Origin: an uncultured SAR116 cluster alpha proteobacterium
GTDB taxonomy: Bacteria; Pseudomonadota; Alphaproteobacteria; Puniceispirillales; Marisalimonadaceae
DNA: 60,851 bases
NCBI GenBank assembly: GCA_902537945.1
Contig: CACBDG010000012.1
Location: forward strand, 1-60,851
Reading direction: 5' to 3'
Shown here: piece after piece, positions 18,035-44,773 of the stretch
Layout of the letters: every line of letters starts with the position of its first letter
Position numbering within the stretch: position 1 is the stretch's first letter
Position numbers and translations under genes: made by a program
The notes under the pieces: generated by a model
What the model was told of the DNA's origin: nothing
What the model saw: only the letters and a program-made list of their open reading frames with translations
Database searches by the model: none

Positions 18035-18766
18035 CTAAGGTTTAAATTTATTAAGATAACCCATATATTCTTTTTTTCTGGGTAACGCATAAGATCCAAC
18101 CTTACTTGTTTTAATTTTTAAATTAACTAAGCTTTCTGCTAACACAACAGCTGAAGAAACCCCTTCGATAACTGGTAATTTATGTTTTATTTCTAGGTTT
18201 TTAGCTAAGTCAGCCATGCCAGCGCATCCTAAAATTATTGACTCTGCATTATCATTTTCTTTTGTATTTTGAATTCCTTTATTTAATTTATCTAAGTTTT
18301 CTTTAGAAATATTTTCTAAATCTAAAACTGGAACTTCAATAGCAGTAACTTTGACGCAATTTTCAAAAAGACCATATTTTTTTAAATTATGAGTCAGTGG
18401 TCTTATAGATCTAGATAATGTTGTTATCACTGTGAAATTACCAGCCACCATAGTCGCAACATGATATGCGGCTTCTCCTATTCCTATCACTGGTTTTTCT
18501 GTAATTGATCTAATTACTTCTAAACCTGTATCATCAAAACAAGCAATAATATATGAATCAGCATCACTATGTTTTTCTATTTCTTCTACCAACCCAGGAA
18601 TACAAAAAGCTTCATCATAAAATCCCTCAATGCTCTCAGGACCAACGTTTGGTTCAACGGAAACAATCTCAGTATCTGCACTAGCATATTTCTTTGCAGT
18701 TAAATCTATTTTCTGCGTCATTGCTTTAGTAGTATTAGGATTAATTATACAAATTTTTCTTTTCAA
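18035..18766 (-). CDS. Asp/Glu/hydantoin racemase (both catalytic cysteines present)
   Basis: A 243-residue member of the Asp/Glu/hydantoin racemase superfamily. It starts with the family's ICIINPNTT and has Cys76 (IIACFDDTG) and Cys181 (ILGCAGMADL), the pair used for two-base proton transfer. Family members racemise 5-substituted hydantoins or allantoin. It follows the permease gene by only 5 bases and precedes upp by 11, so it belongs to the Pot-type transporter operon. Of three homologues in this window it is the only one that keeps both cysteines. Confidence 0.88.
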   Translation of the reverse strand: MKRKICIINPNTTKAMTQKIDLTAKKYASADTEIVSVEPNVGPESIEGFYDEAFCIPGLVEEIEKHSDADSYIIACFDDTGLEVIRSITEKPVIGIGEAAYHVATMVAGNFTVITTLSRSIRPLTHNLKKYGLFENCVKVTAIEVPVLDLENISKENLDKLNKGIQNTKENDNAESIILGCAGMADLAKNLEIKHKLPVIEGVSSAVVLAESLVNLKIKTSKVGSYALPRKKEYMGYLNKFKP

Positions 18767-18771
18767 AATAA

Positions 18772-19665
18772 TTATCCTCTTTTTCTTTTAAGCCAAATGT
18801 AACATGCTATGGAAATACCAATTACGCTAAATGAGACAAACGTAGTTACAGTACCCAATGCATATATAACAGGTGTTGTGACTGTTGTAGTTAGACCTCT
18901 TAACTCTAATGGAAGTGTGTTCCCAGCACCCATAACTTGAGATGATCTCGCTAATTCATCATATGATAAAGTGAATCCAAACAACGCAATGCCAATTATA
19001 CTAGGTGCTATGAGTGGAAAAACAACCTCTTTAAAAGTTTTCCAAGGACTTGCTCCAAGATCTCTTGCTGCCTCTTCATAAGATTTGTCAAATCTATTAA
19101 AAACTGCAAACATTATTAGTAATCCAAAAGGAAGCGTCCACGTCAATTGAGCACCTAACCCACTTGTAAACATTCCTAAAGTAGTTTGAAAAAATTCATT
19201 GATATAATTTATATCAAAAGTTGATCCAAGCCATTTTGTAAAATCATCGAGTAATCTAAATTGAAGAGCTATTCCAAGTGACAATACGATCGATGGTACA
19301 ATTAAGCTTGCAACTGTTGCAAAGAAAAGCGTATCAGATCCCCAAAATTTTTTTCTAAATGCAAGGCCTGCACTAACAGATAAAAGAACTGTTAAGACCA
19401 TAACAATTACACCTAAAATTATCGATCTTTTAAATGCTGAACCTATGTCTACAACAGAACCACCTCGCCATAACTCTTCGAACCAATATGTAGAAACTCC
19501 ATTAAGAGGGAAGGTTAAACCTCCATCAGGTCCCTGAAAACTTAAAAGAACAATTGTGAATGTTGGACCATATAGAAATAAAACAAATAAACAAAAAAAG
19601 AAAACACAAATATAATAAGTTTTATTTTTCTTGTTCAACATTTTAAAGCTCTTTTCGAATGTCAA
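18772..19665 (-). CDS. ABC transporter permease (PotC-like)
   Basis: A 297-residue inner-membrane permease with about six helices. The EAA-loop signature SYEEAARDLGASPWKTFKEVVFPLIAPSI near residues 194-222 couples it to the ATPase. It is the second permease of a Pot-type (polyamine/opine/2-aminoethylphosphonate-like) importer. It overlaps the upstream permease gene by 23 bases. The partner ATPase is encoded divergently beyond the binding protein. Ligand specificity is not evident; the linked racemase and upp argue for a ring nitrogen compound rather than spermidine. Confidence 0.9.
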   Translation of the reverse strand: MTFEKSFKMLNKKNKTYYICVFFFCLFVLFLYGPTFTIVLLSFQGPDGGLTFPLNGVSTYWFEELWRGGSVVDIGSAFKRSIILGVIVMVLTVLLSVSAGLAFRKKFWGSDTLFFATVASLIVPSIVLSLGIALQFRLLDDFTKWLGSTFDINYINEFFQTTLGMFTSGLGAQLTWTLPFGLLIMFAVFNRFDKSYEEAARDLGASPWKTFKEVVFPLIAPSIIGIALFGFTLSYDELARSSQVMGAGNTLPLELRGLTTTVTTPVIYALGTVTTFVSFSVIGISIACYIWLKRKRG

Positions 19666-20527: not shown

Positions 20528-20550
20528 ATTTATGTTTAAATAATTATAAA

Positions 20551-20580
20551 AAAATAGGGTAACATTAGTTACCCTATTTT
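20551..20580 (-). terminator. Intrinsic terminator/attenuator between binding-protein and permease genes
   Basis: A perfect 13-bp inverted repeat (AAAATAGGGTAAC at 20551-20563, GTTACCCTATTTT at 20568-20580, loop ATTA) lies just after the binding-protein stop. On the minus strand it leads into an uninterrupted run of seven T residues, the classical intrinsic terminator. Because the permease genes follow in the same direction, it probably ends most transcripts and lets a minority read through, giving excess binding protein. Confidence 0.8.
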
Positions 20581-20591
20581 TGAATATTTTT

Positions 20592-21863: not shown

Positions 21864-21935
21864 ATTAACCTCCAAAAATTGTTAATGTTAAAGTTGTAAA
21901 ATTAATGTATTTGTAATAGGAATTAATCTAATTGG

Positions 21936-21963
21936 AAATATATGTTGCATATATTTTATGCAA
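21936..21963. promoter_or_regulatory. Two overlapping palindromes in a divergent promoter (candidate operator)
   Basis: Between the binding-protein and ATPase genes lies a perfect palindrome with 9-base arms, AAATATATG (21936-21944) and CATATATTT (21948-21956), around TTG. It overlaps a second one with arms TTGCATA (21945-21951) and TATGCAA (21957-21963). Symmetric sites of this kind between divergent transporter genes usually bind a dimeric regulator. The regulator is not encoded in the window. A/T richness increases chance symmetry, but nine-base perfect arms plus an overlapping second palindrome are notable. Confidence 0.5.
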
Positions 21964-22047
21964 ACAAACGTTTTTTATAAAAATTGATTAAAGTCTAGTC
22001 AATTTTATTTTAAGAATTAAGTTTAAAGTAAAAAATAGGCAAAAAAA

Positions 22048-23034: not shown

Positions 23035-23097
23035 CTTACTCATGTTTATTGATTTTTTTAAAATTTAAAAGTTATAATCTTAAAAGTATTAATTCAA

Positions 23098-24516: not shown

Positions 24517-24518
24517 GA

Positions 24519-28293: not shown

Positions 28294-29646
28294 ATGTCAA
28301 AACTTTTAATTAAAAATGCAAGCATTATTGCCACTATGGACGATGATAGAAATGAGCTTCTCAATAAATCAATTTACTGTGAAGATGGTGAAATTATTGA
28401 CATTGGAGATCTAAAAACTTTTAATTATAATCCTGAAATAGTTATTGATGCATTCGAGATGGTTGTTATACCTGGTTTGGTTAATACACATCACCATTTA
28501 TTTCAAAATTTGACACGCGTTTTTCCAGGCTCCCAAAATGAGTCATTATTTGGTTGGCTTACAAATTTGTACCCTATTTGGAATAAAATTTTACCCTCTG
28601 ATATTTATATTTCAACTTTAATTGGATTATCTGAAATGGTTATTAGTGGGTGTACTACTTCAAGTGATCATCTATATCTTTTCCCAAATGGATCAAAGCT
28701 TGAACATCAAATTGAAGCAGCAGGTGAGGTTGGTTGCAGGTTTCACGCAACTAGAGGTTCTATGAGTATAGGTGTAAGTAAGGGAGGGCTTCCGCCAGAC
28801 ACACTCACCGAAAATGAAAATTCAATTATAAAAGATTGCCAAAGGGTGATTGAAGATTTTCATGATTCATCAGAATTTTCAATGTTAAAAATTGCATTAG
28901 CACCTTGTTCACCATTCAGTGTTAGTCAAAATTTGATGAAGGAAACTGCTAAGTTAGCTCGAAATTACTCTGTTAGTATGCATACACATCTGGCAGAAAA
29001 TGATGAAGATATTGCTTATACAAAACAAAATTTTGGCATGACCTCAGGTGAGTATATTAAAGACTTAGGTTGGGTTGGAGATGATGTTTGGCATGCTCAT
29101 TGTGTAAAATTAAATAAAGATGAAATTGAATTATTTTCTAGAACGGGTACTGGTATTGCGCATTGTCCTTGTTCAAATATGAGACTTGCAAGTGGCATAG
29201 CCCCTTTGAGAACGTGGATAGATAAAGGTGTGAAAGTAGGTTTAGGCGTAGATGGTTCAAGTTCAAATGATAGTGGTCATCTTTTGAGTGAAGCTCGCCA
29301 AGCAATGTTATTACAGAGAGTAAACTTAGGTGCTAATAAATTTTCACCAAGAGAAGCATTACATACAGCAACAAGGGGTGGTGCAGAAGTATTGAACAGA
29401 AATGATATTGGTCAGATTTCTGTTGGCAAAGCGGCAGATTTTGCAATCTATGACTTAAATAAAATTGCTATGTCTGGAGCTTGGAGTGATCCTTTGGCTG
29501 CTTTGGTATTATGTACCCCTGCTGAAACTGCTTACACTATTTGCAATGGAGAGGTAATCTCTCAAAATGGTCATTTAAATAATTTTGATCTTAATTTATC
29601 CCTAGAAAAACATAAGGCTGCATCAAAAAGATTGCTGGATTTATAG
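28294..29646 (+). CDS. 8-oxoguanine deaminase-like amidohydrolase
   Basis: A 450-residue metal-dependent deaminase of the amidohydrolase superfamily (TrzN/AtzA/SsnA clade). Metal and active-site groups are visible: NTHHHLFQNLTR (His66 and His68), MHTHLAEND, VWHAHC and GVDGSSSND with the conserved aspartate. The NTHHHLFQNLTR segment resembles 8-oxoguanine deaminases, which convert 8-oxoguanine to urate and ammonia. Placement between a purine permease and the urate pathway supports this. There is no ribosome-binding site and barely any leader after the terminator. The stop overlaps the convergent allA gene by 6 bases. Confidence 0.82.
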   Translation: MSKLLIKNASIIATMDDDRNELLNKSIYCEDGEIIDIGDLKTFNYNPEIVIDAFEMVVIPGLVNTHHHLFQNLTRVFPGSQNESLFGWLTNLYPIWNKILPSDIYISTLIGLSEMVISGCTTSSDHLYLFPNGSKLEHQIEAAGEVGCRFHATRGSMSIGVSKGGLPPDTLTENENSIIKDCQRVIEDFHDSSEFSMLKIALAPCSPFSVSQNLMKETAKLARNYSVSMHTHLAENDEDIAYTKQNFGMTSGEYIKDLGWVGDDVWHAHCVKLNKDEIELFSRTGTGIAHCPCSNMRLASGIAPLRTWIDKGVKVGLGVDGSSSNDSGHLLSEARQAMLLQRVNLGANKFSPREALHTATRGGAEVLNRNDIGQISVGKAADFAIYDLNKIAMSGAWSDPLAALVLCTPAETAYTICNGEVISQNGHLNNFDLNLSLEKHKAASKRLLDL

Positions 29647-30153
29647 AGTAATGAATCTAGTTTCATTATTTGTGAAATGATATTCTCTTAAATTAACAGA
29701 AGAATCTTCTTGATCATTTATCCTGTCAATTACCCAAAAATCTTGTTTCTTTTTAACTAAAAGAGGGTGGTGCCAAACATTTTTATTGTATGTGATGCCA
29801 GTATCCCCATTTACATGGAAACATCTTAAAGTACTCAAATCTGGTACTTCATTTTTTTCTTCGCAAACAACTATTAACCAATCATAATTTTGAATAGGAA
29901 GAAAACTTTGAGAAGCAACAGGATGTTTCTCCATAATCTTTATTTCTATAGGAAGGTCTTTTGGTAAACCAGAAAAGATAGAAATACCTGAATTTCCATT
30001 TTTACTTTCTAAATCTAACTCAGAAATATTATGATACCTAGCAGTGGTTCCTTGATTGATAGAGCGTAATTCTAATGCATTTTTCTTTTCTATAATATCC
30101 CCAAATTTAGAAAAAATATTAGTATCTATTTGCTCGATTGTTATATTATTCAT
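29641..30153 (-). CDS. allA: Ureidoglycolate lyase
   Basis: A 170-residue cupin-fold enzyme of the ureidoglycolate lyase/hydrolase family, which splits ureidoglycolate to glyoxylate and urea. Family features are the N-terminal FSKFGDIIE, the SGLPKDLPIEIKIMEKHPVASQSFLPI block and the VNGDTGITYNKNVWHHPLL segment, close to the GQGVNYARGVWHHPLL pattern. It is the last gene of the minus-strand operon uraH-puuD-hydantoinase-alc-allA and starts 1 base after the alc stop. The immediate product, glyoxylate, has a candidate consumer 20 kb away (aminotransferase at 50245). Confidence 0.9.
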   Translation of the reverse strand: MNNITIEQIDTNIFSKFGDIIEKKNALELRSINQGTTARYHNISELDLESKNGNSGISIFSGLPKDLPIEIKIMEKHPVASQSFLPIQNYDWLIVVCEEKNEVPDLSTLRCFHVNGDTGITYNKNVWHHPLLVKKKQDFWVIDRINDQEDSSVNLREYHFTNNETRFITL

Positions 30154-30154
30154 T

Positions 30155-31147: not shown

Positions 31148-31163
31148 TTTTTCCCCTATTTCT

Positions 31164-32570: not shown

Positions 32571-32587
32571 TAAATATTCTCCAATGA

Positions 32588-33811
32588 TTATTTATTTTTT
32601 AGATTATGAACACTCAAATAAAGTTGATTAATCAAACTTCTTTCATTGTCTTCAAGAAAAGAAATATTCCCAGGCGGCATTGCATAGGATAACACAGACT
32701 GTTTATATACATTATCAATGTTACTTATTATATCTGTATATGATTCTAAATTGACTAATTTTGGTGCATTTTTCATATTTTCCCATAAAGGGTCTTTAGC
32801 ATGACACATTGAACATTTAGAAACAATTACCTCTTGAGCACTTACCAAAGTTTTTTCTGGGATTAGTTCGATCAAAGCAGTTGTGTTTTTAATGTTATTT
32901 AGTTTTGGTTTACCTAAGTCTGAAATATAAAAAACTATTGACCCTAGAATAATTATTGGAACACAAATCCAATAAGGTGGCTTGGCTCCAGTGTGTTTAA
33001 TATTGAAAAAATGTCTAATTAACGCTCCAATTATTAAAATAATTGAAATGATTATCCAAGAATATTTTGTAGCATAAATTAAAGGATAATGATTTGAAAT
33101 CATGATAAAAATTACTGGTAATGTTAAGTAATTGTTATGAAGAGATCGTTGTTTTGCAATAGCACCATAAATTGGGTTAGGTGTCTCATTTGCTAGCAAA
33201 CTAGCTACAACTTTTTTCTGACCAGGAATTATGATCATAAGAACATTAGCAACCATAATAGTACCTAAAACTGTACCTATCTGCATAAAAGCGCCTCTAT
33301 AACTAAATATTTCAGAATAAGCCCACGACATAACAGTAATTAAAATAAATATAGAACTTATTAGTACATAGACATTTGTTTTTAATGATAATCTGCACAT
33401 GAGATCATAAATAACCCAACCAAAGACAATACCTAGTAATGAAATTATTACAGCTTCATATTTTTCTAAATCATATTTGACAATATCAATCATGTATAAT
33501 TCAGCGCCTGCATAATATATAAGAGCTAACAAAGCAAAACCTGAGACCCAAGTAGCATAGGCTTCCCACTTAAACCAGGTTAATTCTGAGGGCATTTTTG
33601 ACGGTGCAACAAGATATTTAACTAAGTGATAAAATCCACCTCCATGAACTTGCCAAGCTTCTCCATGAGATTTATCTGGAAGATTTTTATTTTGTTTTAA
33701 ACTTAAATCTAATGCAATGAAATAAAAGCTTGAGCCAATCCATGCAATTCCAGCAATGACATGGAACCATCGCAAAATTAGTTCAGACCATTCTTCAAAT
33801 AAAAATATCAA
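32588..33811 (-). CDS. puuD: PuuD-type membrane urate oxidase with C-terminal cytochrome c domain
   Basis: A 407-residue integral membrane protein. Roughly the first 300 residues hold about eight helices with conserved histidines (RWFHVIAGIAWIGSSFYF, QVHGGGFYHLVKY). The C-terminal part has a single c-type heme site, CSMCH at 333-337, with a likely axial methionine in YAMPPG. This is the layout of PuuD, which oxidises urate to 5-hydroxyisourate and feeds electrons to the respiratory chain, replacing soluble uricase. Adjacency to uraH, which acts on the product, supports the call. No soluble uricase gene is visible. Confidence 0.93.
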   Translation of the reverse strand: MIFLFEEWSELILRWFHVIAGIAWIGSSFYFIALDLSLKQNKNLPDKSHGEAWQVHGGGFYHLVKYLVAPSKMPSELTWFKWEAYATWVSGFALLALIYYAGAELYMIDIVKYDLEKYEAVIISLLGIVFGWVIYDLMCRLSLKTNVYVLISSIFILITVMSWAYSEIFSYRGAFMQIGTVLGTIMVANVLMIIIPGQKKVVASLLANETPNPIYGAIAKQRSLHNNYLTLPVIFIMISNHYPLIYATKYSWIIISIILIIGALIRHFFNIKHTGAKPPYWICVPIIILGSIVFYISDLGKPKLNNIKNTTALIELIPEKTLVSAQEVIVSKCSMCHAKDPLWENMKNAPKLVNLESYTDIISNIDNVYKQSVLSYAMPPGNISFLEDNERSLINQLYLSVHNLKNK

Positions 33812-33814
33812 AAA

Positions 33815-34165
33815 TTAGCTCCCTCTATAAGTACTATAGCCAAAGGGAGATAGTAATAATGGCACGTGGTAATGTTCAGATTTATTGTTTACAAAAAATC
33901 TAATGGGTATTTTATCAAGAAAAACATGTTTAAGGTTGCTATTTTGTTTTTTTAGATAATCACCAGCAAAAAATAATAATTCGTAATGAATTTCTTCTAA
34001 GCTTTCAGTAGATAACAATGGTTCGTCAATTCTACCATCCTCATTAGTCAAAACAGTTTTGATAAATATTTTTTCTGTATCCAATATTTTATATAATTCA
34101 ATTTTTAATTCTACTGCGGGTATACCTTTGCTAGTATCTAAAACATGAGTTGAAAGACCTGCCAT
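33815..34165 (-). CDS. uraH: 5-hydroxyisourate hydrolase
   Basis: A 116-residue transthyretin-like protein that converts 5-hydroxyisourate to OHCU. The N-terminal LSTHVLDTSKGIPA, the HYHVPLLLSPFGYSTYRGS end with the diagnostic YRGS tetrapeptide, and the length all fit. It is the first gene of the minus-strand urate operon, 3 bases before puuD. It has no signal peptide, so it acts in the cytoplasm. The next gene in the pathway, uraD, begins divergently less than 70 bases away. Confidence 0.95.
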   Translation of the reverse strand: MAGLSTHVLDTSKGIPAVELKIELYKILDTEKIFIKTVLTNEDGRIDEPLLSTESLEEIHYELLFFAGDYLKKQNSNLKHVFLDKIPIRFFVNNKSEHYHVPLLLSPFGYSTYRGS

Positions 34166-34194
34166 ATTTTTCTCTATTTTAATTTGTGTAAAGT

Positions 34195-34755
34195 ATGTTT
34201 AAATTTGAGAATATAATAATGTCAGGTAAAATAATGTACAATAAAACTTTCAAATTTATTTCTAAAAAAATGGAAAGAGAAGAAATAATAGATCTACTAA
34301 AAAGTGTTTATGAACATTCTCAATGGGTACCAGAAAGACTGTTATCTGAAAATATAAGTGGAATTCAAACAAAAGAAGAATTGCAATTAATGATGAAAAA
34401 AATAGTTGATAATTCTTCAGAAACAGAGAAATTAAATTTGATTAATGCTCATCCTGAACTTGGAAAAAAGCTTCAAAAAAAAGAAAAACTTACGAAGTTT
34501 TCGGAAGATGAACAAAAATCTGCAGGTTTAGACCAATGCTCTGATGAAGAATTTGAAATTTTAACGAATCTCAACAATGAATATAGATTAAAATTTAAAT
34601 TTCAATTTATAATTGCAGTGAAAGGTTTAAATAAAAATCAGATCATAGATAATTTGAAAAAGAGAGTTAATAACACCAAAACTGAAGAATTTGAAACCGC
34701 GATAAGTGAAATTCACAAAATTGCTGAACTAAGAATTAAAGATTTGACTTATTAA
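34195..34755 (+). CDS. uraD: OHCU decarboxylase
   Basis: A helical protein of the OHCU decarboxylase family, which forms S-allantoin from OHCU. VYEHSQWVPERL, the catalytic NAHPELGKKL histidine segment and FIIAVKGLNKNQII are clear. The longest frame gives 186 residues, but the family's conserved part begins around residue 26 and only 29 bases would separate it from divergent uraH. Starts at 34219 or 34234 (ATG) are therefore more likely, leaving room for promoters. It heads a plus-strand operon continuing into the DapA-like, racemase-like and PuuE-like genes. Confidence 0.92.
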   Translation: MFKFENIIMSGKIMYNKTFKFISKKMEREEIIDLLKSVYEHSQWVPERLLSENISGIQTKEELQLMMKKIVDNSSETEKLNLINAHPELGKKLQKKEKLTKFSEDEQKSAGLDQCSDEEFEILTNLNNEYRLKFKFQFIIAVKGLNKNQIIDNLKKRVNNTKTEEFETAISEIHKIAELRIKDLTY

Positions 34756-34799: not shown

Positions 34800-35753
34800 A
34801 TGACAAAAGAATTTAAAGATATGAAAGGTGTTATTGCTATTGCTACCACACCTTTCAACAATGAAAATTTAATTGATTTTGAATCAGTAGATAGACTCTC
34901 AAATTATTATATAGAAAGTAAAGTTTCTGGAGTTACAATCCTTGGGGTTATGGGGGAGGCTCATAAACTTAATATTGAAGAACAAAAATCATTAATTAAA
35001 AGATACGTAAATAATTTAATAAGCAGTGTTCCAGTAATTGTAGGGGTATCTAATGCTGGTCTTGATAACTTAGACTTACTTTCTAAATTTTCAATGGATT
35101 CTGGTGCCTCTGGAGTTATGGTATCTGGTAATAATGGTTTAAAAAATGACGATCAAATCAAATCTTACTTCAATCAAGTTGTAGATCGCACTCAAGATAT
35201 TCCAATTTGTTTGCAGGATTATCCACCCACAACTAATGTTTACTTTTCTGAAACTGTTATAAATACTATAATGGAAAATCATCCGTCAATTGAGATGTTT
35301 AAGCACGAAGACTCCCCTGGACATAATAAATTATCAAGACTTATTAGATATAGAGACAATCATTTAAATAGAAAATATAGCGTGTTTGTAGGTAACGGAG
35401 GCTTGTATGTTCCCCAAGAACTTGAAAGAGGTGCTGACGGAATTATGACTGGTTTTGCATTCACTGAAATGTTGGTTAGTTTACATAATTTATTTTCTAA
35501 TAATGATAAAGAAAAAGCAGAAGATTTATTTGATATATATTTACCACTCATAAGGCATGAACAACAATTTGGAATAGGTTTAGGTTTAAGAAAATTTGTT
35601 TTGCAAAAAAGGGGTATTATTAATTCGTTAAATGTGAGATCTCCTGGTCCAGTTCTAACTGAGGATGATATCAAGGAGGTGAATAATTTATTAAAAAGAT
35701 TACACTCAAAATTAATTGAAAAAGGTCTTCCAACTCCAAAAGGAATAAATTAG
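34800..35753 (+). CDS. Divergent dihydrodipicolinate synthase-family protein
   Basis: A 317-residue TIM-barrel protein of the DapA superfamily. It keeps a tyrosine (Tyr141, LQDYPP) and a candidate Schiff-base lysine (Lys168, MFKHEDSPG). The usual GTTGE motif is LGVMGEA here, so both active-site threonines are replaced. Compared with the intact homologue at 15155 this implies a changed reaction, perhaps an aldolase or hydrolase step on a ureide or keto acid. AGGAAGGT precedes the ATG. The racemase-like gene follows after 4 bases. Function is unknown; only family and context can be stated. Confidence 0.8.
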   Translation: MTKEFKDMKGVIAIATTPFNNENLIDFESVDRLSNYYIESKVSGVTILGVMGEAHKLNIEEQKSLIKRYVNNLISSVPVIVGVSNAGLDNLDLLSKFSMDSGASGVMVSGNNGLKNDDQIKSYFNQVVDRTQDIPICLQDYPPTTNVYFSETVINTIMENHPSIEMFKHEDSPGHNKLSRLIRYRDNHLNRKYSVFVGNGGLYVPQELERGADGIMTGFAFTEMLVSLHNLFSNNDKEKAEDLFDIYLPLIRHEQQFGIGLGLRKFVLQKRGIINSLNVRSPGPVLTEDDIKEVNNLLKRLHSKLIEKGLPTPKGIN

Positions 35754-35757
35754 AGGT

Positions 35758-36510
35758 ATGAAAATATTACTGTATAACCCTAATACTTCTGAATCTATAA
35801 CAGAAAAACTTTATGAAACTGCTAAGTTGGTAGTAAGTAGTGAAACAACCTTAATTCCTAAAACAGCAGAAAAGGGTTTCCCATATATATCAACTAAAGT
35901 TGAGGCCCAAATCACTGGCACTTTAGTTCTAGAAAAACTAGCAAAAATACATTCACAATATGATGCTATAATTATAGCCGCTTTTGGTGATCCAGGTCTG
36001 ATACCAGCAAAAAGTTTGTTTAACCTGCCGATAATTGGACTAGGGGAGGCCGCTATGTTAAGTGCTTGCTTATTTGGTAAAAAATTCTCAATTATATCAT
36101 TTACTAACGCAATGGCGTCTTGGTATGAAGAAAGTGTTGAATTGCTAGGATTACAGTCTAGATATGCAGGATTTAGAGCTATAGATGGTGTTAACTTAAC
36201 TATTGATAAAATTCAATCGCTTCAGAAGAAATCTTTAATTGAATCTGCAAAAAATGCTATCAAAATTGATGGTGGTGAGGTGGTTATATTTGCAGGGGCT
36301 CCATTGTCTGGATTTAAAAATATTGTTCAAAAAGAAATTAGTGTACCTGTGATTGATTGTGCTGAAGCAGCTGCAAAGCAAGCAGAATTAGCTGTCGTTA
36401 TGAATAAAAATACTATAAACAAACATAAATTACCTCCTAAATCATCTATAGGGGTTGATAAAAATTTATCGGAATTGATTTCTCACAAAGTTGATAATGG
36501 TTCAAAATGA
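35758..36510 (+). CDS. Asp/Glu/hydantoin racemase-family protein lacking both catalytic cysteines
   Basis: A 250-residue homologue of allantoin/hydantoin racemases. The fold markers ILLYNPNTSESI, AAFGDPGLIPA and PIIGLGEAA are kept. The two positions that carry catalytic cysteines in the intact homologue at 18035 (Cys76 and Cys181) are Ala75 (IIIAAFGDPG) and Ala181 (FAGAPLSG) here. Two-cysteine racemisation should therefore be impossible. Its stop overlaps the PuuE-like start (ATGA), so the pair is probably co-translated. A binding, isomerase or lyase function on a hydantoin-like compound is possible but unproven. Confidence 0.82.
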   Translation: MKILLYNPNTSESITEKLYETAKLVVSSETTLIPKTAEKGFPYISTKVEAQITGTLVLEKLAKIHSQYDAIIIAAFGDPGLIPAKSLFNLPIIGLGEAAMLSACLFGKKFSIISFTNAMASWYEESVELLGLQSRYAGFRAIDGVNLTIDKIQSLQKKSLIESAKNAIKIDGGEVVIFAGAPLSGFKNIVQKEISVPVIDCAEAAAKQAELAVVMNKNTINKHKLPPKSSIGVDKNLSELISHKVDNGSK

Positions 36511-37409
36511 AAAGAAATTTTATTGGTTATGGAAAAGATAAGCCAAAAATTCTTTGGCCTCAAGAAAATAAAATTGCAGTATCGTTTGTTGTAAATATTG
36601 AAGAGGGTGCAGAGCTCTCGATTTCATCAGGCGATAGTCAAAATGAGCATGTATACGAAAATAATAAAATTAAAATATTAGATATCCCTGATCTTTGTAT
36701 GGAATCTCATTTTGAATACGGTTTAAGATCAGGTATTTGGCGCATTTTTGACGTTTTTGATAAATATAACGTAAAAGCAACATTTAGTTGTTGTTCTTTG
36801 GCATTAGAAAATTCTCCTTGGTTAATAGATGAAATTTTAATCAGAAATCATGAAATATCTGCTCATGGCGTCAAGTGGATTTCTCATGCTTATCTTAGTA
36901 AAGAAGAGGAAAAACAAATAATTAATAATTGTTACTCCTCAATACTTAAACTTTCTGGTCATCCCCCAGTTGGTTGGCACACAAAATCTAGTACATCTCC
37001 ATTTACTAGGGATCTTTTGATTGAGCATGGAGGATTTACATATGATTCTAACGCATATAATGACGACATACCTTACGTATTAAAAAAAAATGATCAGAAA
37101 CTTGTTATTATTCCATATTCATTTGATACAAATGACATGAGATATGATGGTAATAATGGTTTTGTACATGGAGATGATTTTAATATTTATTGTAAAGAAT
37201 CATTTAATCAACTTCTCTCAGAAACAGACGATGGATCTTTGAGAATGATGTCTATAGGATTACATCCCAGAATTATCGGAAGACCAGGTAGAATTAAGGG
37301 GCTTGAAGATTTTATTAAATATATAAAAACTTATGAAAATGTATGGATACCAAAGAGAATGCATATAGCAAAATATTGCTTAGAAAAAGATTCATTCAAT
37401 CTTTTCTGA
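36507..37409 (+). CDS. PuuE-like polysaccharide-deacetylase-family hydrolase (candidate allantoinase)
   Basis: A 300-residue protein of the polysaccharide-deacetylase superfamily resembling PuuE allantoinases. FIGYGKDKPKILWPQENKIAVSFVVNIEEGAE near the N-terminus, GLRSGIWRIFDVFDKYNVKATF, ISAHGVKWISHAYLS and GFTYDSNAYNDDIPYV follow that subfamily closely. PuuE opens the allantoin ring. Since a hydantoinase-type enzyme already sits in the alc/allA operon, this may be a second allantoinase or act on a related ureide. It ends the uraD-led run; a 121-base gap precedes the TRAP genes. Confidence 0.8.
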   Translation: MKRNFIGYGKDKPKILWPQENKIAVSFVVNIEEGAELSISSGDSQNEHVYENNKIKILDIPDLCMESHFEYGLRSGIWRIFDVFDKYNVKATFSCCSLALENSPWLIDEILIRNHEISAHGVKWISHAYLSKEEEKQIINNCYSSILKLSGHPPVGWHTKSSTSPFTRDLLIEHGGFTYDSNAYNDDIPYVLKKNDQKLVIIPYSFDTNDMRYDGNNGFVHGDDFNIYCKESFNQLLSETDDGSLRMMSIGLHPRIIGRPGRIKGLEDFIKYIKTYENVWIPKRMHIAKYCLEKDSFNLF

Positions 37410-37530
37410 TTAAATTTCTAACATTTATTTGAAGTAACTTAATAAAATTTTTGGTTACGTTTAATTCAATTTGACTCTTTATTGCTCTAAATGCTTAATT
37501 ATTACACATTTACTATGAAAGGAATTAATA

Positions 37531-38505
37531 ATGATTACAAAAATTTTTAAAAAAACGTTTCTTTTTGTAGCTGTTTCTATCTTTAGTTTTAATTTGCATG
37601 CAGCAGATTGGACAATGGCTTCAGGCTATCCAAAAAGTAACTTTCATACTCAAAATATAATTAAATTTATAGATGATGTTAAGTCCACTACTTCAGTTAA
37701 TATTAATCTAAATCCCAACGATACTCTAATTAAATTAGATGCAATAAAAACATCTCTTCAAAGAGGACAGATTCCAATTGGAGAAATTAGATTAGGTATT
37801 TATGGTAATGAAGACCCAATGTATATTTTAGCAGGATTACCATTTATTGCACCAGACTATTCAAGTGCTTGGTTATTAAAAGATGTGCAAATGGAATATC
37901 TTCAAGAAAAATTCGCTAAAAAAGGACTTATGATTTTGTATACTGCTCCATGGCCAGGACAGGGGTTTTATACTAAGTTTCCAGTAAATAGTGTATCTGA
38001 TTTTAAGGGCAAAAAGCTTAGAATTTATTCTACAGCCACACAACAAATGGGATCTATGTTAGGATTTAATGCAACAATTCTTCCTTTTGCAGAAATTCCA
38101 CAGGCATTTTCTACAGGTCTTATTGAGGCATTATTTACAAGTCCACAAACAGGTATAGATATTCAAGCATGGGATAACACTAAGCATTTTACTTATGCTG
38201 GAGCTATTTTTAGTAAAAATGCAGTTGTCGTTACCAAAAAAGCTTTTAATGCTTTGTCAAAAGGTGATCAAAGTAACATGTTAGCAGCTGCAAAGAAAGC
38301 TGAGCTTAGAGGGTGGGAGATGAGTGCTGAGACTACTAAAAAGCAAATAGGTATTCTTAAGAAAAATGGAATGTCTTCTAAAAATGCCCCAGATGAGGTA
38401 ATTAGCAAAATGAAAAGTATTGGTCTTGAAATGATGAAAAATTGGAGATCAAAAGCTAGTCCAGAGGCTAATGCTGTGTTAGATAGATACTTATCTATGC
38501 GTTAA
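37531..38505 (+). CDS. TRAP transporter substrate-binding protein (DctP family)
   Basis: A 324-residue periplasmic protein. The first 24 residues are a signal peptide ending LHAADW. DctP-family features include GQIPIGEIRLG, the substrate-carboxylate-binding arginine region KLRIYSTATQQMGSMLGFNATILPFAEIPQAFSTGLIEALFTSP, and KNAVVVTKKAFNALS. It is followed by dctQ- and dctM-type genes. The ligand is not readable, but the flanking PuuE-like and HyuAB genes suggest a ureide or carboxylated hydantoin derivative; TRAP ligands normally carry a carboxylate. Confidence 0.92.
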   Translation: MITKIFKKTFLFVAVSIFSFNLHAADWTMASGYPKSNFHTQNIIKFIDDVKSTTSVNINLNPNDTLIKLDAIKTSLQRGQIPIGEIRLGIYGNEDPMYILAGLPFIAPDYSSAWLLKDVQMEYLQEKFAKKGLMILYTAPWPGQGFYTKFPVNSVSDFKGKKLRIYSTATQQMGSMLGFNATILPFAEIPQAFSTGLIEALFTSPQTGIDIQAWDNTKHFTYAGAIFSKNAVVVTKKAFNALSKGDQSNMLAAAKKAELRGWEMSAETTKKQIGILKKNGMSSKNAPDEVISKMKSIGLEMMKNWRSKASPEANAVLDRYLSMR

Positions 38506-38523
38506 AATTTTTTAGAGATAGCC

Positions 38524-39039
38524 ATGAAAAATAAATTGAATAAATTATATTTATATAGTGGCTATCTCTCTGCCTTTTTTATGGTTCTTATTGCTTTGAC
38601 CATAGTTGCTCAAATTTTAGGAAGATTTGTAAATATTACAGTTGATTCAACAGAAACTGCTGGTTTTAGTTTGGCTGCCTTAACTTTTTTTGGATTGTCA
38701 TATACTTTTCATAGCGGTGAACATATTAGAGTAACTTTATTTACAAGATTATTAGGAAAAAAAATTAGAAGATATCAAGAGCTTTTCTCATTGTCATTTT
38801 GCATTATTATTACTGGTTATTTGACATATTGGAGTTGGGACTTTGTATATTTTTCATTTATTTTTGAGGATATTAGCCCAGGTCTCTTGGCTATACCTTT
38901 TTGGATCCCAAGGATAAGTATGTCTATAGGTATAACTATTTTTTTAATTGCTCTTATTGATGATTTTTTTACTGTTTGGAAAAAAGATCAGCCATCTTAC
39001 GTTAAAAATGCTGATCCAATATTGAAAGATAATACTTAG
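38524..39039 (+). CDS. TRAP transporter small permease (DctQ family)
   Basis: A 171-residue inner-membrane protein with four hydrophobic segments, the normal DctQ layout. The AALTFFGLSYTFHSGEHIRVTLF segment with its GEHIRV motif is characteristic. It lies 18 bases after the binding-protein gene and 11 before dctM and should form the small half of the membrane complex. The C-terminus is a polar tail of about 20 residues facing the cytoplasm. Confidence 0.9.
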   Translation: MKNKLNKLYLYSGYLSAFFMVLIALTIVAQILGRFVNITVDSTETAGFSLAALTFFGLSYTFHSGEHIRVTLFTRLLGKKIRRYQELFSLSFCIIITGYLTYWSWDFVYFSFIFEDISPGLLAIPFWIPRISMSIGITIFLIALIDDFFTVWKKDQPSYVKNADPILKDNT

Positions 39040-39050
39040 AAGAGAAATTT

Positions 39051-40349
39051 ATGGCTACTGGATTATCATTAATTTTATTTATTTTACTTCTTTTTCTTTT
39101 ATCTTTGGGTATATGGGTGGCCCCAGCATTAATTACTTTAGGATATATATTACTTGAATTTTTTACTCCAGCACCCGTAGGATCTCTTCTCGCTAGCACT
39201 TTATGGGATGCAAGTTGGAATTGGGCATTAACTGCCTTACCTTTATTTATATGGATGGGTGAAATACTTTTTAGAACAAGACTTTCCTCAGAAATGTTTA
39301 AAGGTCTTGCACCAATGCTGTCTAATTTACCTGGAGGGTTGTTGCATGTAAATGTAGTTGGTTGTGGTATAATGGCAGCTGTTGCAGGCTCTAGTGCAGT
39401 TACATGCGCCACAATAGGCAGAATGAGTATTCCAGAGTTAAAGAAAAGAAATTATGATGAAACGCTCAGCATAGGTTCTTTAGCTGGTTCTGGTACATTA
39501 GGGTTGTTAATTCCACCTTCAATAATGCTTATTGTTTACGGTGTTTTGGCTCAAGTCTCAATATCGAGACTTTTCATAGCCGGCGTTTTACCAGGTATAA
39601 TGATTATTTTGATTTTTATGTCATATATTGCAATTAGGTCTAAACTTAATCCTACTTTAGCACCCAAACAAAATGTTAGTTATACTTTCTTTGAAAAAAT
39701 AAAGGCAGCAAGAAACTTGCTTCCAGTCGTTGCGCTAATATTTTTTGTCCTTGGTTCAATTTATGGTGGTTATGCTACGCCAACTGAGGCTGCAACTATT
39801 GGTGTGATAGGAGCACTAATACTTGCTTGGTCTTCAAAATCTCTTAATTTTAAAAGTTTTATGGATAGTTTGATGGGTGCTGTGAAAACTTCTTGCATGA
39901 TTAATTTTATAATTGTAGGAGCAGCTTTTCTATCTGTTGCTATGGGGTACACTGGCATTCCAAAACAATTAGGACAAATTGTAAATGACTTTGAATTATC
40001 ACAACTTTCACTTCTAGCAATTCTAACAATATTATACATTTTCCTTGGTTGTTTCCTTGAAGGAACATCCATGATGGTATTAACTGCATCTGTAGTATTA
40101 CCAATGGTCCAGACAGCTGGTATAGATTTAATATGGTTTGGGATTTTTACTGTAATAGTTGTTGAAATGGCACAAATCACTCCTCCAGTCGGATTTAATC
40201 TTTTTGTCCTTCAAGGAATGACGGGTAGAGATATATTGAAAGTTACAAAAGCAGCATTACCCTTTTTCTTTTTAATGTTGTTAAGTATTGCCATTATAAT
40301 AATTTTCCCTCAAATCGTTACTGCACCTGTTAACTTCATGATTCAATAA
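39051..40349 (+). CDS. TRAP transporter large permease (DctM family)
   Basis: A 432-residue, roughly 12-helix membrane protein of the DctM family. Diagnostic stretches are GSSAVTCATIGRMSIPELKKRNYDE, GSLAGSGTLGLLIPPSIMLIVYGV and VVEMAQITPPVGFNLFVLQGMTG, all in normal positions. It catalyses sodium-driven uptake of the ligand delivered by the DctP protein. HyuA follows after 26 bases on the same strand, so transporter and hydantoinase are probably one operon, and transported substrate and HyuAB substrate are probably related. Confidence 0.93.
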   Translation: MATGLSLILFILLLFLLSLGIWVAPALITLGYILLEFFTPAPVGSLLASTLWDASWNWALTALPLFIWMGEILFRTRLSSEMFKGLAPMLSNLPGGLLHVNVVGCGIMAAVAGSSAVTCATIGRMSIPELKKRNYDETLSIGSLAGSGTLGLLIPPSIMLIVYGVLAQVSISRLFIAGVLPGIMIILIFMSYIAIRSKLNPTLAPKQNVSYTFFEKIKAARNLLPVVALIFFVLGSIYGGYATPTEAATIGVIGALILAWSSKSLNFKSFMDSLMGAVKTSCMINFIIVGAAFLSVAMGYTGIPKQLGQIVNDFELSQLSLLAILTILYIFLGCFLEGTSMMVLTASVVLPMVQTAGIDLIWFGIFTVIVVEMAQITPPVGFNLFVLQGMTGRDILKVTKAALPFFFLMLLSIAIIIIFPQIVTAPVNFMIQ

Positions 40350-40375
40350 TTGTTTATTTAAAAGGATTTCAATAA

Positions 40376-42448
40376 ATGAGACTTGCTATTGATATCGGTG
40401 GTACTTTTACAGATATAGTTTTAGAGGATAAAACTAACCTTTTTACTAAAAAAGTACTTACCTCAACTTCTCAGCCGGAGGTTGCAGTTATTGAAGGTGT
40501 AGAAGAATTATTACAAGAAAATAAAATAAAATCGTCAGATATAAAGATGATCATTCATGGTACGACTTTGGCTACAAATGCAGTCATTGAAAGAAAAGGT
40601 GCCAAAACTTGTTTTATAACAACTGAAGGTTTTAGAGATGTTTTAGACATTGGTTATGAAAGTAGGTTTGATCAGTATGATATACTTATTGAAAAAACTA
40701 TGTCACTTGTTCCAAGAAAGCATAGATATGTAATTGAAGAAAGAACTGATATTAATGGATCAATAATAAAACCTATTAATGCTAAAAAATTCCAGAGTTT
40801 AGTTGATACTATCAAAAAAGAAAAATTTGAAAGTATTGGAATTGGTTTTTTACATTCTTATGCAAATTCTAAAAATGAAAATGATTTAAAAGAATTTTTA
40901 TTAAAACATTTCCCAGAATTAGAGGTAAGTATATCTTCTGATGTCTGCCCAGAAATAAGAGAATATGAACGTTTTACTACTACTGTAGTAAATTCATATA
41001 TTAAACCTTTAATGTCTAGATATTTAAAGAAATTAGAAAGTGAATTAAAACAAAAAGGTTTTAATTGTCCCCTCTTATTAATGACCTCTGGTGGTACTTT
41101 AACTAACGTGACGAGTGCGTGTAACAACCCAGTTAGGTTGGTTGAGTCTGGTCCTGCAGGTGGAGCTATCTTAGCAACTTCTATTGCTGAAGACTTAAAA
41201 CTAAATAAAGTAATTTCATTCGATATGGGAGGAACAACAGCTAAGATAACCATAATTGAAAACCAAAAAGCAATTAAAGCTCGAGAGTTTGAAGTTGACA
41301 GAAAAGCGAGATTCAAAAAAGGAAGCGGACTGCCTTTAAGAATTCCTGTAATCGAAATGGTTGAGATTGGTGCAGGAGGTGGATCAATAGCTCGAGTAAA
41401 TAAGTTAGATCAAATAATTACTGGCCCAGATAGTGCTGGCTCAAATCCGGGTCCAGCATGCTATTCTAATGGTGGCGACAATCCAACAATTACAGATGCA
41501 GATTTAGTTATAGGTAAGATTGATCCAGATAAATTTGCTGAGGGTAAAATAAACTTATCCAAAGAATTTGCTAAAAATGCAATCACAAAAAATATAAGTG
41601 ATAAGATTAATATGAAAACTTCAATAGCTGCATTAGCAATATCTGAAATAGTTGATGAAACGATGTCAAATGCAGCTAGAGTACACACTGTTGAACAAGG
41701 TCATGAGACATCTAACAGAACTCTAATTGGTTTTGGAGGAGCCGCCCCTCTTCATATTTCTAGGGTTGCAGAAAAATTAAGAGTAAAAAAAATAATCATC
41801 CCGACAAATGCTAGTGTAGGTTCAGCAGTTGGATTTTTGAGAGCACCTGTTGGATACGAAGTAGTTAAAAGTCTTAGAATGTTATTAAATAAATTTAATT
41901 TTGAAAAAGTTAATAATTTACTTAATTCTATGAGGAATGAAGCACAAAAAATTATACAAAACAATTCTGAAAGCACAGAATTTGTTGAAGAACGTTTTGC
42001 ATTTATGCGTTATGCGGGACAAGGCCATGAAATCAAAGTGCCTATTGATAATAAGGTATTATCTAATGAGGACGCAAAAATAATTAAAAACTCTTTTGAA
42101 GCAAATTACGAAAAATTATATTCTAGAACACTACCAAATGCTGACATAGAAATTTTAACCTGGTCTTTATCATTATCTATTATGGGCAATAATATAACTG
42201 AATATATAGAGTTAGGTTCCTATAAAAAAATTAAAGAAAATTCTTTAATTGATTTTTATGATTATCAAAGTGGTGAACAAATTAAAATACCAAATTATGA
42301 GAGAAAAAAGTTAAATCCAGGAGATTTGATACAAGGTCAATGTGTAATCACAGAGGCTCAAACTACAATTGTTGTTTCTAATAATTTTAATACAAAAGTT
42401 TTAAGTAATGATTTTTTACAAATGGAATATATAAATAATGAAACATAA
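40376..42448 (+). CDS. hyuA: Hydantoinase/oxoprolinase family, subunit A
   Basis: A 690-residue HyuA-family protein with the N-terminal ATP-binding start RLAIDIGGTFTDIVLE, a second phosphate-binding block (SFDMGGTTAKITII), VEIGAGGGSIARV and the GPACYSNGGDNPTITDADLVIG segment. HyuA partners HyuB in ATP-dependent opening of hydantoins (N-methylhydantoinase) or 5-oxoproline, and relatives include acetone carboxylase. The two subunit genes overlap by 11 bases. The TRAP importer directly upstream probably supplies the substrate. The specific ring cannot be assigned. Confidence 0.9.
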   Translation: MRLAIDIGGTFTDIVLEDKTNLFTKKVLTSTSQPEVAVIEGVEELLQENKIKSSDIKMIIHGTTLATNAVIERKGAKTCFITTEGFRDVLDIGYESRFDQYDILIEKTMSLVPRKHRYVIEERTDINGSIIKPINAKKFQSLVDTIKKEKFESIGIGFLHSYANSKNENDLKEFLLKHFPELEVSISSDVCPEIREYERFTTTVVNSYIKPLMSRYLKKLESELKQKGFNCPLLLMTSGGTLTNVTSACNNPVRLVESGPAGGAILATSIAEDLKLNKVISFDMGGTTAKITIIENQKAIKAREFEVDRKARFKKGSGLPLRIPVIEMVEIGAGGGSIARVNKLDQIITGPDSAGSNPGPACYSNGGDNPTITDADLVIGKIDPDKFAEGKINLSKEFAKNAITKNISDKINMKTSIAALAISEIVDETMSNAARVHTVEQGHETSNRTLIGFGGAAPLHISRVAEKLRVKKIIIPTNASVGSAVGFLRAPVGYEVVKSLRMLLNKFNFEKVNNLLNSMRNEAQKIIQNNSESTEFVEERFAFMRYAGQGHEIKVPIDNKVLSNEDAKIIKNSFEANYEKLYSRTLPNADIEILTWSLSLSIMGNNITEYIELGSYKKIKENSLIDFYDYQSGEQIKIPNYERKKLNPGDLIQGQCVITEAQTTIVVSNNFNTKVLSNDFLQMEYINNET

Positions 42449-44063
42449 TTTAATTGATGACAAAAATAATATTCAAAATCAAGTAATGTGGAATAGACTT
42501 CTTTCTGTTGTTGAAGAACAGGGTCAAACACTAGTTAGAACTGCATTTAGTCCAATAGTTCGTGAATGTGGGGACATATCTGCTGGAGTTTTTGACCTAG
42601 AGGGTAGAATGATGGCTCAAGCAGTTACAGGCACTCCTGGTCATGTTAATTCTATGGCAGAGTCTGTTAAGCATTTTATCAATCATTTTCCATTAAACAC
42701 AATGAATGAAGGAGACATATTTATTACAAATGATCCATGGATGGGTACAGGGCATTTAAATGATTTTGTATTAACAACTCCTTGTTTCAAAAATAACAAA
42801 ATAGTAGGTCTTTTTTCATGTACCTCTCATTTGACTGATATTGGAGGATTGGGAGTAGGTCCTGATGCTACTGACATACACATGGAAGGTCTTTATATAC
42901 CTATGTTGAAATTAGCTGACAGAGGTGTAATGAATAAAACATTATTAAAACTAGTTAGCCAAAACACAAGACAACCTGTAGAAACAGAAGGTGATGTTTA
43001 CTCATTGGCTGCATGTAATGATATAGGTTGCAAAAGATTAGTAGAAATGATGAACGAATTTAAAATTGATAATTTAAAAAATTTATCTGATTTTATATAT
43101 AACAAGTCATTATCAGCCGTAAAAAATGAAATTAAGAAAATCCCAAATGGCGTATATGAAAATTTTATGATGATTGATGGATTTGAAAAAGATATTAAAT
43201 TAGAGGCAAAATTAACTGTTTCTGATAAATCAATAACAGTTAATTATACAGGCACTTCTGATAAATCTAAATTTGGTATAAATGTTCCATTATCTTATAC
43301 TAAAGCTTACACCTGTTTTGGTTTAAGTTGTCTTGTAAGTGCTGAAATACCAAATAATGCGGGTTCTCTAAAACCTTTTGAAATTGATGCACCATTAGGT
43401 TCTATTTTAAATGCTCCATATCCTGCTGCTGTATGCGCAAGACATATTATTGGACAAATGCTTCCAGATGTAGTTTTTGGTTGTTTAGAAAAAGCCATAC
43501 CTGATAAAGTTCCTGCAGAAGGTGCTTCTTGTTTGTGGAACATCACTTTTCGTGGAAAAACTGATAGGGGAGCAAACAACAACTCACTATTTGCTGTAAC
43601 TGCGGTAGTTAATGGTGGAACAGGAGCCAGGCCAAACAAGGACGGGTTATCAGCTACTGCTTACCCTTCTGGTGTAAGAGGAACTCCAGTTGAAATAAAT
43701 GAAGCTGTTGCTCCATTATTGTTCCTAAAAAAAGAATATAATCCAGGAAGTGGTGGTAAAGGAAAGTATAATGGTGGTTTGGGTCAATTAATTGAAATCA
43801 AATCAGCAATTGATGAGGACATGGATCTTTTAGCTTCTTTTGATAGAATTAAATTTCCTGCAAGAGGTCGTTTAAATGGAAGCAATGGCAAACCTGGACA
43901 AGTCTCGATTAAGGGTAAAGGAAAGTTGAATGGCAAAGGTACACAAGTCATAAAGGCAGGTGATATCTTACAAATTCATACACCTGGCGGTGCTGGTTAT
44001 GGAGATTACTCAGAAAGAGATAAGGCTTTGTTAGAAAAAGATTTAGAGAATGAGTTTTTATAA
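42438..44063 (+). CDS. hyuB: Hydantoinase/oxoprolinase family, subunit B
   Basis: A 541-residue HyuB-family protein. The N-terminal NRLLSVVEEQGQTLVRTAFSPIVRECGDISAGVFD block, TGTPGHVNSMAESVKHF, ITNDPWMGTGHLNDFVL, a central NGGTGARPNKDGLSATAYPSGVRGTPVE and the C-terminal TPGGAGYGD are all typical. It forms the catalytic complex with HyuA. The gene starts inside the end of hyuA and ends 5 bases from the convergent racemase-like gene. Length is normal for a stand-alone B subunit. Confidence 0.9.
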   Translation: MKHNLIDDKNNIQNQVMWNRLLSVVEEQGQTLVRTAFSPIVRECGDISAGVFDLEGRMMAQAVTGTPGHVNSMAESVKHFINHFPLNTMNEGDIFITNDPWMGTGHLNDFVLTTPCFKNNKIVGLFSCTSHLTDIGGLGVGPDATDIHMEGLYIPMLKLADRGVMNKTLLKLVSQNTRQPVETEGDVYSLAACNDIGCKRLVEMMNEFKIDNLKNLSDFIYNKSLSAVKNEIKKIPNGVYENFMMIDGFEKDIKLEAKLTVSDKSITVNYTGTSDKSKFGINVPLSYTKAYTCFGLSCLVSAEIPNNAGSLKPFEIDAPLGSILNAPYPAAVCARHIIGQMLPDVVFGCLEKAIPDKVPAEGASCLWNITFRGKTDRGANNNSLFAVTAVVNGGTGARPNKDGLSATAYPSGVRGTPVEINEAVAPLLFLKKEYNPGSGGKGKYNGGLGQLIEIKSAIDEDMDLLASFDRIKFPARGRLNGSNGKPGQVSIKGKGKLNGKGTQVIKAGDILQIHTPGGAGYGDYSERDKALLEKDLENEFL

Positions 44064-44068
44064 TTAAT

Positions 44069-44773
44069 TTAAATTGGTAATCCAAAAGTTCGACTTGGTT
44101 TAGGAACAAATTTTTTTATTTGTAAATCTAATTTAACAAATTTTTCTATTAAAGCTGTAGCAGCTGTTACTCCCTCAATAATAGGTATGTTGAACTTATT
44201 ACTTAAATTTTTTGATAAATTTAAAATACCTGGGCTTGTTAAAATTATAGCCTCTGGATTATCTTCTATAATTGTTCTTTGAATTTCGTGATCTAATTTA
44301 TTCAAGTTTGATTTTGACATTGTATCCATATCTAATACTGGAACTTCTAGTGAATTTATAGATACACACTTATGTTCCATGTCATATTTTATTAAATTAT
44401 TTTTTAAAGCTTCATGTGATTGAGATAGATTGGTGATTATTGAAAACTTATTTGCAATTATATTGGCAGTATAAAATACAGCTTCACCTAAACCAATTAT
44501 TGGTTTTGACGTGATTTTTCGAATTGTGTCGACACCAATATCTTCAAAGGAAATAACTATAAAAGCGTCTGAAGAATTATTTGTTTCAACTTCGTTAAGT
44601 AATTTTGAAACATTTATAGTTTCTCTGTGTAAGTCATAGTAGTCTTCTTGAAAACTTTTATCACTTATGAAAATACTAGAATTTTTATCTAATATTTTTT
44701 TTGCACAAAGCTTGATTTTTTCATTTGAGATAGCAGTTGCGTAAGGATTAATGATACAAATTTCAATACTCAA
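44069..44773 (-). CDS. Asp/Glu/hydantoin racemase-family protein with both cysteines changed to serine
   Basis: A 234-residue homologue of the intact racemase at 18035; the two align throughout (CIINP start, SKPIIGLGEA, EVPVLDMD, PIIEGV). The catalytic cysteine positions are Ser75 (IVISFEDIG) and Ser180 (IILTSPGIL). Cysteine-to-serine at both sites should abolish or drastically weaken racemisation. It is the last gene of the minus-strand run FAD/Fe-S dehydrogenase, molybdoenzyme, racemase-like, 11 bases after the molybdoenzyme stop, and faces the end of hyuB. A non-racemase role is inferred. Confidence 0.82.
   Translation of the reverse strand: MSIEICIINPYATAISNEKIKLCAKKILDKNSSIFISDKSFQEDYYDLHRETINVSKLLNEVETNNSSDAFIVISFEDIGVDTIRKITSKPIIGLGEAVFYTANIIANKFSIITNLSQSHEALKNNLIKYDMEHKCVSINSLEVPVLDMDTMSKSNLNKLDHEIQRTIIEDNPEAIILTSPGILNLSKNLSNKFNIPIIEGVTAATALIEKFVKLDLQIKKFVPKPSRTFGLPI

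Follow-up and report, generated by a model that had tools for sequence, protein, structure and literature searches.

Racemase homologues of a SAR116 purine-breakdown island

The window analysed here is a stretch of 60,851 nucleotides (positions 1-60851 of contig CACBDG010000012.1, one of the contigs of a 75% complete genome of the SAR116 cluster), which family searches of its proteins identify as a purine-breakdown island and which encodes three homologues of allantoin and hydantoin racemases from the family PF01177. All three genes are intact and full-length, and are named here, after the residues at the two catalytic positions, RacCC (175 bits), RacAG (129 bits) and RacSS (90 bits). Alignment with KpAllR (HpxA), the allantoin racemase of Klebsiella pneumoniae, places Cys76 and Cys181 of RacCC, Ala75 and Gly180 of RacAG, and Ser75 and Ser180 of RacSS opposite the catalytic residues Cys79 and Cys184 (sites 1 and 2, respectively). 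The anchors used (N12, C79, T118 and C184) are those given in PMC12661438, and the distances from N12 to T118 (106), to C79 (67) and to C184 (172) are as expected, which confirms the mapping.

The original prediction, made from the letters of the DNA, had held that two of the three homologues lack both catalytic cysteines, and no cysteine is indeed present at either aligned position in RacAG or RacSS; its residues for RacCC and RacSS are likewise confirmed by the alignment, and for RacAG it was correct in Ala75 but took Ala181 for site 2, where the aligned residue is the preceding Gly180. Its further claim that the INP/NPNT motif is kept fails for RacSS, which reads INPYA, with Tyr as the equivalent of the substrate residue Asn12, and in which the GPESIEG-like loop is also replaced. 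RacCC, by comparison of its sequence with the family, carries the two cysteines, the Asn12 equivalent and the family match of a putative allantoin racemase. As compared to the KpAllR substrate residues Asn12, Thr118 and Thr119, RacAG retains the asparagine and has Ser114 and Phe115 in place of both threonines. Both RacAG and RacSS carry Asp78 three residues past site 1 (position +3), where an acidic residue is found in 141 of the 142 aligned rows. Asn12 is kept in 56/56 rows with Ala and Gly at the two sites (A/G rows; the other residue states are abbreviated likewise), while its equivalent among the 29 S/S rows is Tyr in 27, Leu in one and His in one.

The AlphaFold2 models of RacAG and RacSS (predicted local distance difference test scores of 84 and 86) both have KpAllR as their best match in the PDB, followed by the allantoin racemase of Pseudomonas fluorescens, PfAllR, with template modelling scores against 3qvk of 0.81 for RacAG and 0.83 for RacSS. 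In both models residue 75 comes just after strand 70-73 and residue 180 just after strand 175-178, which fits the placement expected of paired active-site positions. A PDB search for a solved A/G structure gave five distinct chains, all of them allantoin racemases, OpaE or 2eq5, the last with its residue state unread.

Conservation and order of the cysteine losses

Both double losses are real and conserved and are not due to chance. Orthologues were drawn from the window's order (136 genomes), with the best 30 loci taken per search, which left 25 RacAG and 29 RacSS sequences that were full enough to be used, the window's own copy excluded. The A/G state is present in 25/25 RacAG orthologues, with all four alanine codons in use, and is thus family-wide and not particular to the genome of the window; RacSS orthologues are S/S in 28/29 cases and C/S in one (genome G023), and the RacCC orthologues fetched are C/C in 20/20. 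Both variants are under purifying selection, as indicated by pairwise Nei-Gojobori ratios of nonsynonymous to synonymous substitution rates (dN/dS) against the window copy, which are 0.045-0.162 for RacAG, 0.101-0.247 for RacSS and 0.079-0.152 for RacCC, these values being rough because synonymous sites are near saturation in the most distant pairs.

A tree was built from 68 rows, obtained from the 142 aligned rows by reduction at 80% identity, with the two cysteine columns masked. A branch supported at 100/98 separates 44 rows in which site 2 is Gly from 24 in which it is Cys, Ser or Thr. The C/C clade of the window's family (100/98), to which RacCC belongs, also contains RacSS, a product of duplication of the local C/C racemase; within it, a C/T form from genus g3 branches off as sister to all other members, and the C/S form lies among the S/S rows, a single S/S clade excluding the C/S row not being rejected (p 0.064). 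The intermediate loci L065, L066 and L067 indicate that in the RacSS line Asn12 and the second cysteine were lost before the first. RacAG, on the other hand, lies in the Gly half alongside C/G and V/I/M-G relatives, and a common origin of the A/G and S/S losses is rejected by the approximately unbiased test (p 1.6e-54). In the Gly half, too, the second cysteine would have been lost before the first, an order that depends on the root.

Two further sets of sequences may be mentioned here. The rows with Val, Ile or Met at site 1 and Gly at site 2 (L072, L114, L115 and L129) constitute a third group lacking both cysteines, and hydantoin-ring enzymes were not found within 7 kb at its four loci read. 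The genome also encodes a fourth PF01177 protein outside the window (G000:C4:73949-74581), which scores 90.2 bits against an asp_race cut-off of 93.1; by eye its catalytic motifs are AITSIAGH and LGGTDL, with Cys90 close behind, and it may also have lost both canonical cysteine positions.

Gene neighbourhoods of the cysteine-free forms

RacAG is the second gene of a cassette (Table 1) in the order DapA-like, RacAG, PuuE-like, three TRAP-like genes, HyuA and HyuB, and this order recurs in the 25 named RacAG loci to the extent that the contigs cover it, including divergent genera with 60-70% identity. One of the loci (L085) is rearranged or misassembled past the PuuE-like gene, a few cassette genes are split, and a 26th locus (L101) has a C/C gene in place of RacAG. 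Within the window's family RacAG occurs in 28 genomes; the PuuE-like gene accompanies it in 27/28 and the DapA-like gene likewise in 27/28, and in each exception a contig end cuts RacAG. In two SAR116 contigs the PuuE-like gene is apparently split into two frames (L088, 1371-2257 of G030:C19, and L090, 8751-9633), which may reflect sequencing error or decay.

Table 1. Coordinates of the racemase homologues and of the gene groups around them in the window
Position	Strand	Feature	Remarks
18035-18766	-	RacCC, allantoin-racemase homologue with Cys76/Cys181	Control; RacSS falls in its clade
29641-34755	.	Urate/allantoin genes: ureidoglycolate-lyase family, allantoicase, dihydropyrimidinase/hydantoinase, urate oxidase, HIU hydrolase, OHCU decarboxylase	
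34800-35753	+	DapA-like aldolase-family protein	Cassette gene 1
35758-36510	+	RacAG, PF01177 allantoin-racemase-fold protein with Ala75/Gly180	Asn9 and Asp78 retained
36507-37409	+	PuuE-like polysaccharide-deacetylase-fold amidohydrolase	283.8 bits, under the TIGR03212 cut-off of 424.6
37531-40349	+	Three TRAP-transporter-like genes, DctP, DctQ and DctM	Named from reading the translations, without family search
40376-44063	+	HyuA/HyuB-like ATP-dependent hydantoinase/lactamase pair	Under the NCBIfam caprolactamase cut-offs
44069-44773	-	RacSS, PF01177 protein with Ser75/Ser180	NPN replaced by NPY; downstream of same-strand TorA-like gene
44785-50123	-	TorA/BisC-like molybdopterin reductase and FAD/Fe-S oxidoreductase	Upstream of RacSS, same strand

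The cassette does not appear to be the only route for allantoin, which is disfavoured by the finding that 17 of the 41 allantoicase genomes in the family have none of the RacAG, PuuE-like and DapA-like genes; three of these 17 (G009, G012 and G015) have a completeness of at least 90%, the rest being less complete, such that single absences among them count little. The cassette is therefore probably an accessory route and not a core allantoin step, and if so, the dihydropyrimidinase/hydantoinase at 31164 becomes a candidate allantoinase. Elsewhere in the island, which also holds a xanthine dehydrogenase and a xanthine permease, an amidohydrolase adjoining the permease (28294-29646) scores 643.9 bits against an 8-oxoguanine deaminase cut-off of 532, and, given the hydantoin-type enzymes nearby, the substrates of the cassette might come from a pool of oxidised guanine products. 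The urate oxidase gene at 32588-33811 encodes an N-terminal PF06181 domain and, farther on and close to the C terminus, a CxxCH motif (seen by eye), a layout resembling that of PuuD-type enzymes with a fused cytochrome.

RacSS has a different setting. A same-strand TorA-like gene adjoins it in 30 of 31 loci, and it faces HyuB in 24/31, an OHCU decarboxylase gene in 6/31 and an Ldh2-family gene in 1/31, so that its contact with HyuAB is secondary. The proposal that both altered proteins belong with hydantoin-ring enzymes thus stands for RacAG at most loci, but the tie of RacSS to HyuAB gives way to the steadier one with the TorA-like gene. RacSS was sought in the 136 genomes of the order and in plasmids and was seen in the window's family only, the plasmid matches being below 60% in identity and their catalytic residues unread.

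The A/G form is by contrast widespread, having been read in one Arthrobacter plasmid as well as in three classes of proteobacteria. In a class sample, 46 genomes beyond the window's order had a match and 29 of them had a locus read, which gave an A/G gene in 10 of the 384 other genomes, and a phylum sample at E ≤ 1e-40 gave 11/397 other genomes; since two are shared, 19 A/G genomes result, three of them outside the window's class. The form was also found in eight plasmid stretches, picked, mostly by annotation, out of 35 matching plasmid records and including Paraburkholderia, Diaphorobacter, Klebsiella and one Arthrobacter, and a ninth plasmid locus is from Rhizobium tropici. The signature of the subfamily is AAFGDPG ... 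GAPLxG, and N7, P8, N9, Y43, AAFGDPG, E97, R135, R140 and GAPL are invariant in 15 aligned A/G sequences from four bacterial classes.

For the gene neighbourhoods, a ring enzyme was defined as a hydantoinase/dihydropyrimidinase (Dhp), PuuE-like or HyuAB protein within 7 kb, with the window's family excluded; among the controls, three C/C loci and one V/I/M-G locus come from the window's order but belong to other families of it. A ring enzyme is close to A/G genes in 14/19 genome loci and 8/8 plasmid loci, and to control genes in 3/10 (C/G), 0/4 (V/I/M-G) and 6/10 (C/C) loci. Dhp alone is found in 11/19 A/G genome loci versus 1/24 controls (p 1.2e-4), and an AMDase/EutA-like gene in 8/19 versus 0/24 (p 5e-4), as well as in 6/8 plasmid A/G loci; some control stretches are short, which may depress the control counts, and the amidase and AMDase-like queries were themselves taken from A/G plasmid loci. 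From the counts per enzyme it follows that the A/G association is mainly with Dhp and AMDase-like genes and that of the C/C form with HyuAB. The suggestion that the A/G form might always travel with a DapA-like gene is not borne out, as none of the 27 A/G loci read beyond the window's family showed such a gene. On plasmids, AMDase/EutA-like proteins encoded a few kb from A/G genes, usually together with hydA (L165, L167, L168, L169, L171, L172 and L208), have N/S-G-T at site 1 and C-T-N at site 2 in the six that were aligned; this recurrent module is not known to carry a name.

Possible functions and relation to characterised enzymes

In published work the OpaE C90S/C199S double mutant has ≤0.3% activity and the NozR C75A/C179A double mutant failed to isomerise, and by analogy it is unlikely that RacAG or RacSS racemises by the two-cysteine, two-base mechanism. 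The broader statement of the original prediction, that the altered proteins are not racemases, is upheld as far as this mechanism goes and weakened by PfAllR, which lacks the first cysteine and is still a racemase. In the reading that we favour, with about even confidence, RacAG is not a two-cysteine racemase but a member of a widespread cysteine-free subfamily acting in the breakdown of hydantoin-like rings, and RacSS is a separate case. Its starting points are the fold of RacAG, the absence of both cysteines, the retained substrate Asn and acid, the purifying selection and the gene neighbourhood; beyond these, the pocket would still bind a cyclic ureide, an imide or a ring-opened product, one side of it, most likely Asp78, would act as a single general acid/base, and the step would be one-sided (an isomerisation, tautomerisation, decarboxylation or elimination) and not a two-base inversion. 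More tentatively, and with somewhat less than even confidence, the A/G subfamily as a whole may be an uncharacterised cysteine-free class of putative Asp-based isomerases, decarboxylases or lyases for a hydantoin, dihydropyrimidine or cyclic-imide intermediate, often encoded alongside hydantoinase, amidase and AMDase-like proteins, a class which SAR116 would use in its TRAP-HyuAB-PuuE-DapA cassette on a ring compound other than allantoin. RacSS, in turn, is presumably not a racemase, and would have been repurposed, now together with the TorA-like redox gene set, or may be non-catalytic.

It has to be noted that several observations weigh against the proposed role of RacAG. The +3 acid is also present in 38/38 C/C rows and is therefore no special sign of replacement catalysis, and PfAllR racemises with one cysteine missing, its Glu78 presumably replacing it, so that, with Gly for the first cysteine and an acid at +3, the loss of one cysteine need not end racemase activity. 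The A/G rows form a single clade with weak support (73/37), the grouping of A/G with V/I/M-G being better supported (96/81). The excess for any ring enzyme is modest (14/19 versus 9/24 controls, p 0.03) because C/C genes often adjoin HyuAB (5/10), 5/19 A/G genome loci have no ring enzyme, and at the Rhizobium tropici locus, too, a ring enzyme is missing, genes for an amidase and an AMDase-like protein being found in its stead.

A possibility that we regard as doubtful is that RacAG and RacSS are pseudoenzymes with a ligand-binding, scaffolding or regulatory role, perhaps as partners of nearby racemase-fold proteins. Both catalytic residues are gone in the two proteins and RacSS has in addition lost Asn12 and shows the highest dN/dS of the three homologues, while the AMDase-like racemase-fold genes within 7 kb of A/G genes, also at the Rhizobium tropici locus, would provide such partners. 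The invariance of Asn12, Asp78, Glu97 and AAFGDPG/GAPL in the 15 A/G sequences, however, goes beyond the needs of a pure scaffold, and an obligate pairing of RacAG with an AMDase-like protein was rejected, since no such gene was found in the window or in the 25 named SAR116 cassette loci.

It is less probable still that RacAG remains a racemase or epimerase with other bases, namely Asp78 on one face and, on the opposite one, Tyr123, Cys104 or water, even though hydantoin pathways often include racemases. The +3 acid is present in 56/56 A/G rows, the Gly and Glu of PfAllR are seen in the alignment, Cys104 is found in 46/56 A/G rows, and Tyr123 in 48/56 A/G and 4/4 V/I/M-G rows versus 0/10 C/G rows. 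The second face, however, has Gly in 56/56 A/G rows, with Leu at its +3 in 15 aligned rows, and the inactive NozR double mutant argues against it as well. Tyr123 and the loss of the first cysteine occur in one clade and count as one event, for which reason Tyr123 is not claimed as a sure replacement base. As for a relocated cysteine, Cys201 was rejected (Cys in just 2/30 A/G rows outside the window's family), and Cys104, with Cys in 20/30 of these rows, is a candidate, although it lies two helical turns past Glu97 (helix 95-106 in the model) and is absent from 10/56 A/G rows. Decay, with the cysteines lost by drift, is very improbable in spite of the stepwise loss of several active-site residues in the RacSS lineage, and the original prediction too had argued against it from the parallel double loss, given that the aligned orthologue frames contain no internal stops, that dN/dS is about 0.05-0.25 across the 25 and 29 orthologues, and that the replacing residues are fixed (bar the one C/S row) while synonymous codons vary.

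A literature search limited to papers under Creative Commons licences gave, among the papers listed, no published description of family members lacking both cysteines, and database annotation assigns A/G genes to the aspartate/glutamate racemase family. Braakman et al. (PMC11698098) list allantoin racemase among the SAR116 purine genes, in passages that make no mention of cysteine-less variants. If only the Cys/Cys copy racemises, counts of allantoin racemase depend on the homologue chosen. If the favoured view of RacAG is right, the A/G group would constitute a natural racemase fold working, or binding, without catalytic thiols, and would suggest that an abundant ocean clade degrades rings by a route so far unrecognised.

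Among characterised systems, KpAllR (3QVJ, 3QVK) has the same fold and is the closest PDB entry by both structure and sequence. RacAG keeps its Asn12, with Ser for Thr118 and Phe for Thr119, whereas RacSS keeps Thr118, with Asn for Thr119 and Tyr for Asn12; the catalytic cysteine pair of KpAllR is absent in both. PfAllR (5LFD, 5LG5) resembles them in having a small residue (Gly) for the first cysteine and an acid, Glu, at +3, where RacAG and RacSS have Asp78, but it retains the second cysteine, which is Gly in RacAG and Ser in RacSS. OpaE and NozR are epimerases related to the allantoin/hydantoin racemase branch; they act on other substrates, and both are described as keeping and needing the cysteine pair. 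AMDase and EutA belong to the superfamily of RacAG, and genes resembling them are often close to A/G genes. AMDase is described as having one cysteine only (Gly74, Cys188) and a dioxyanion hole of Thr75 and Ser76, and it catalyses a one-sided decarboxylation; RacAG departs from this motif in having no cysteine at either site and Phe-Gly-Asp after Ala75, and the NCBIfam AMDase model gives no match to it at E ≤ 0.001. The conservation of the widespread A/G group and its frequent location near ring-opening enzymes suggest that the racemase fold has been reused for another step.

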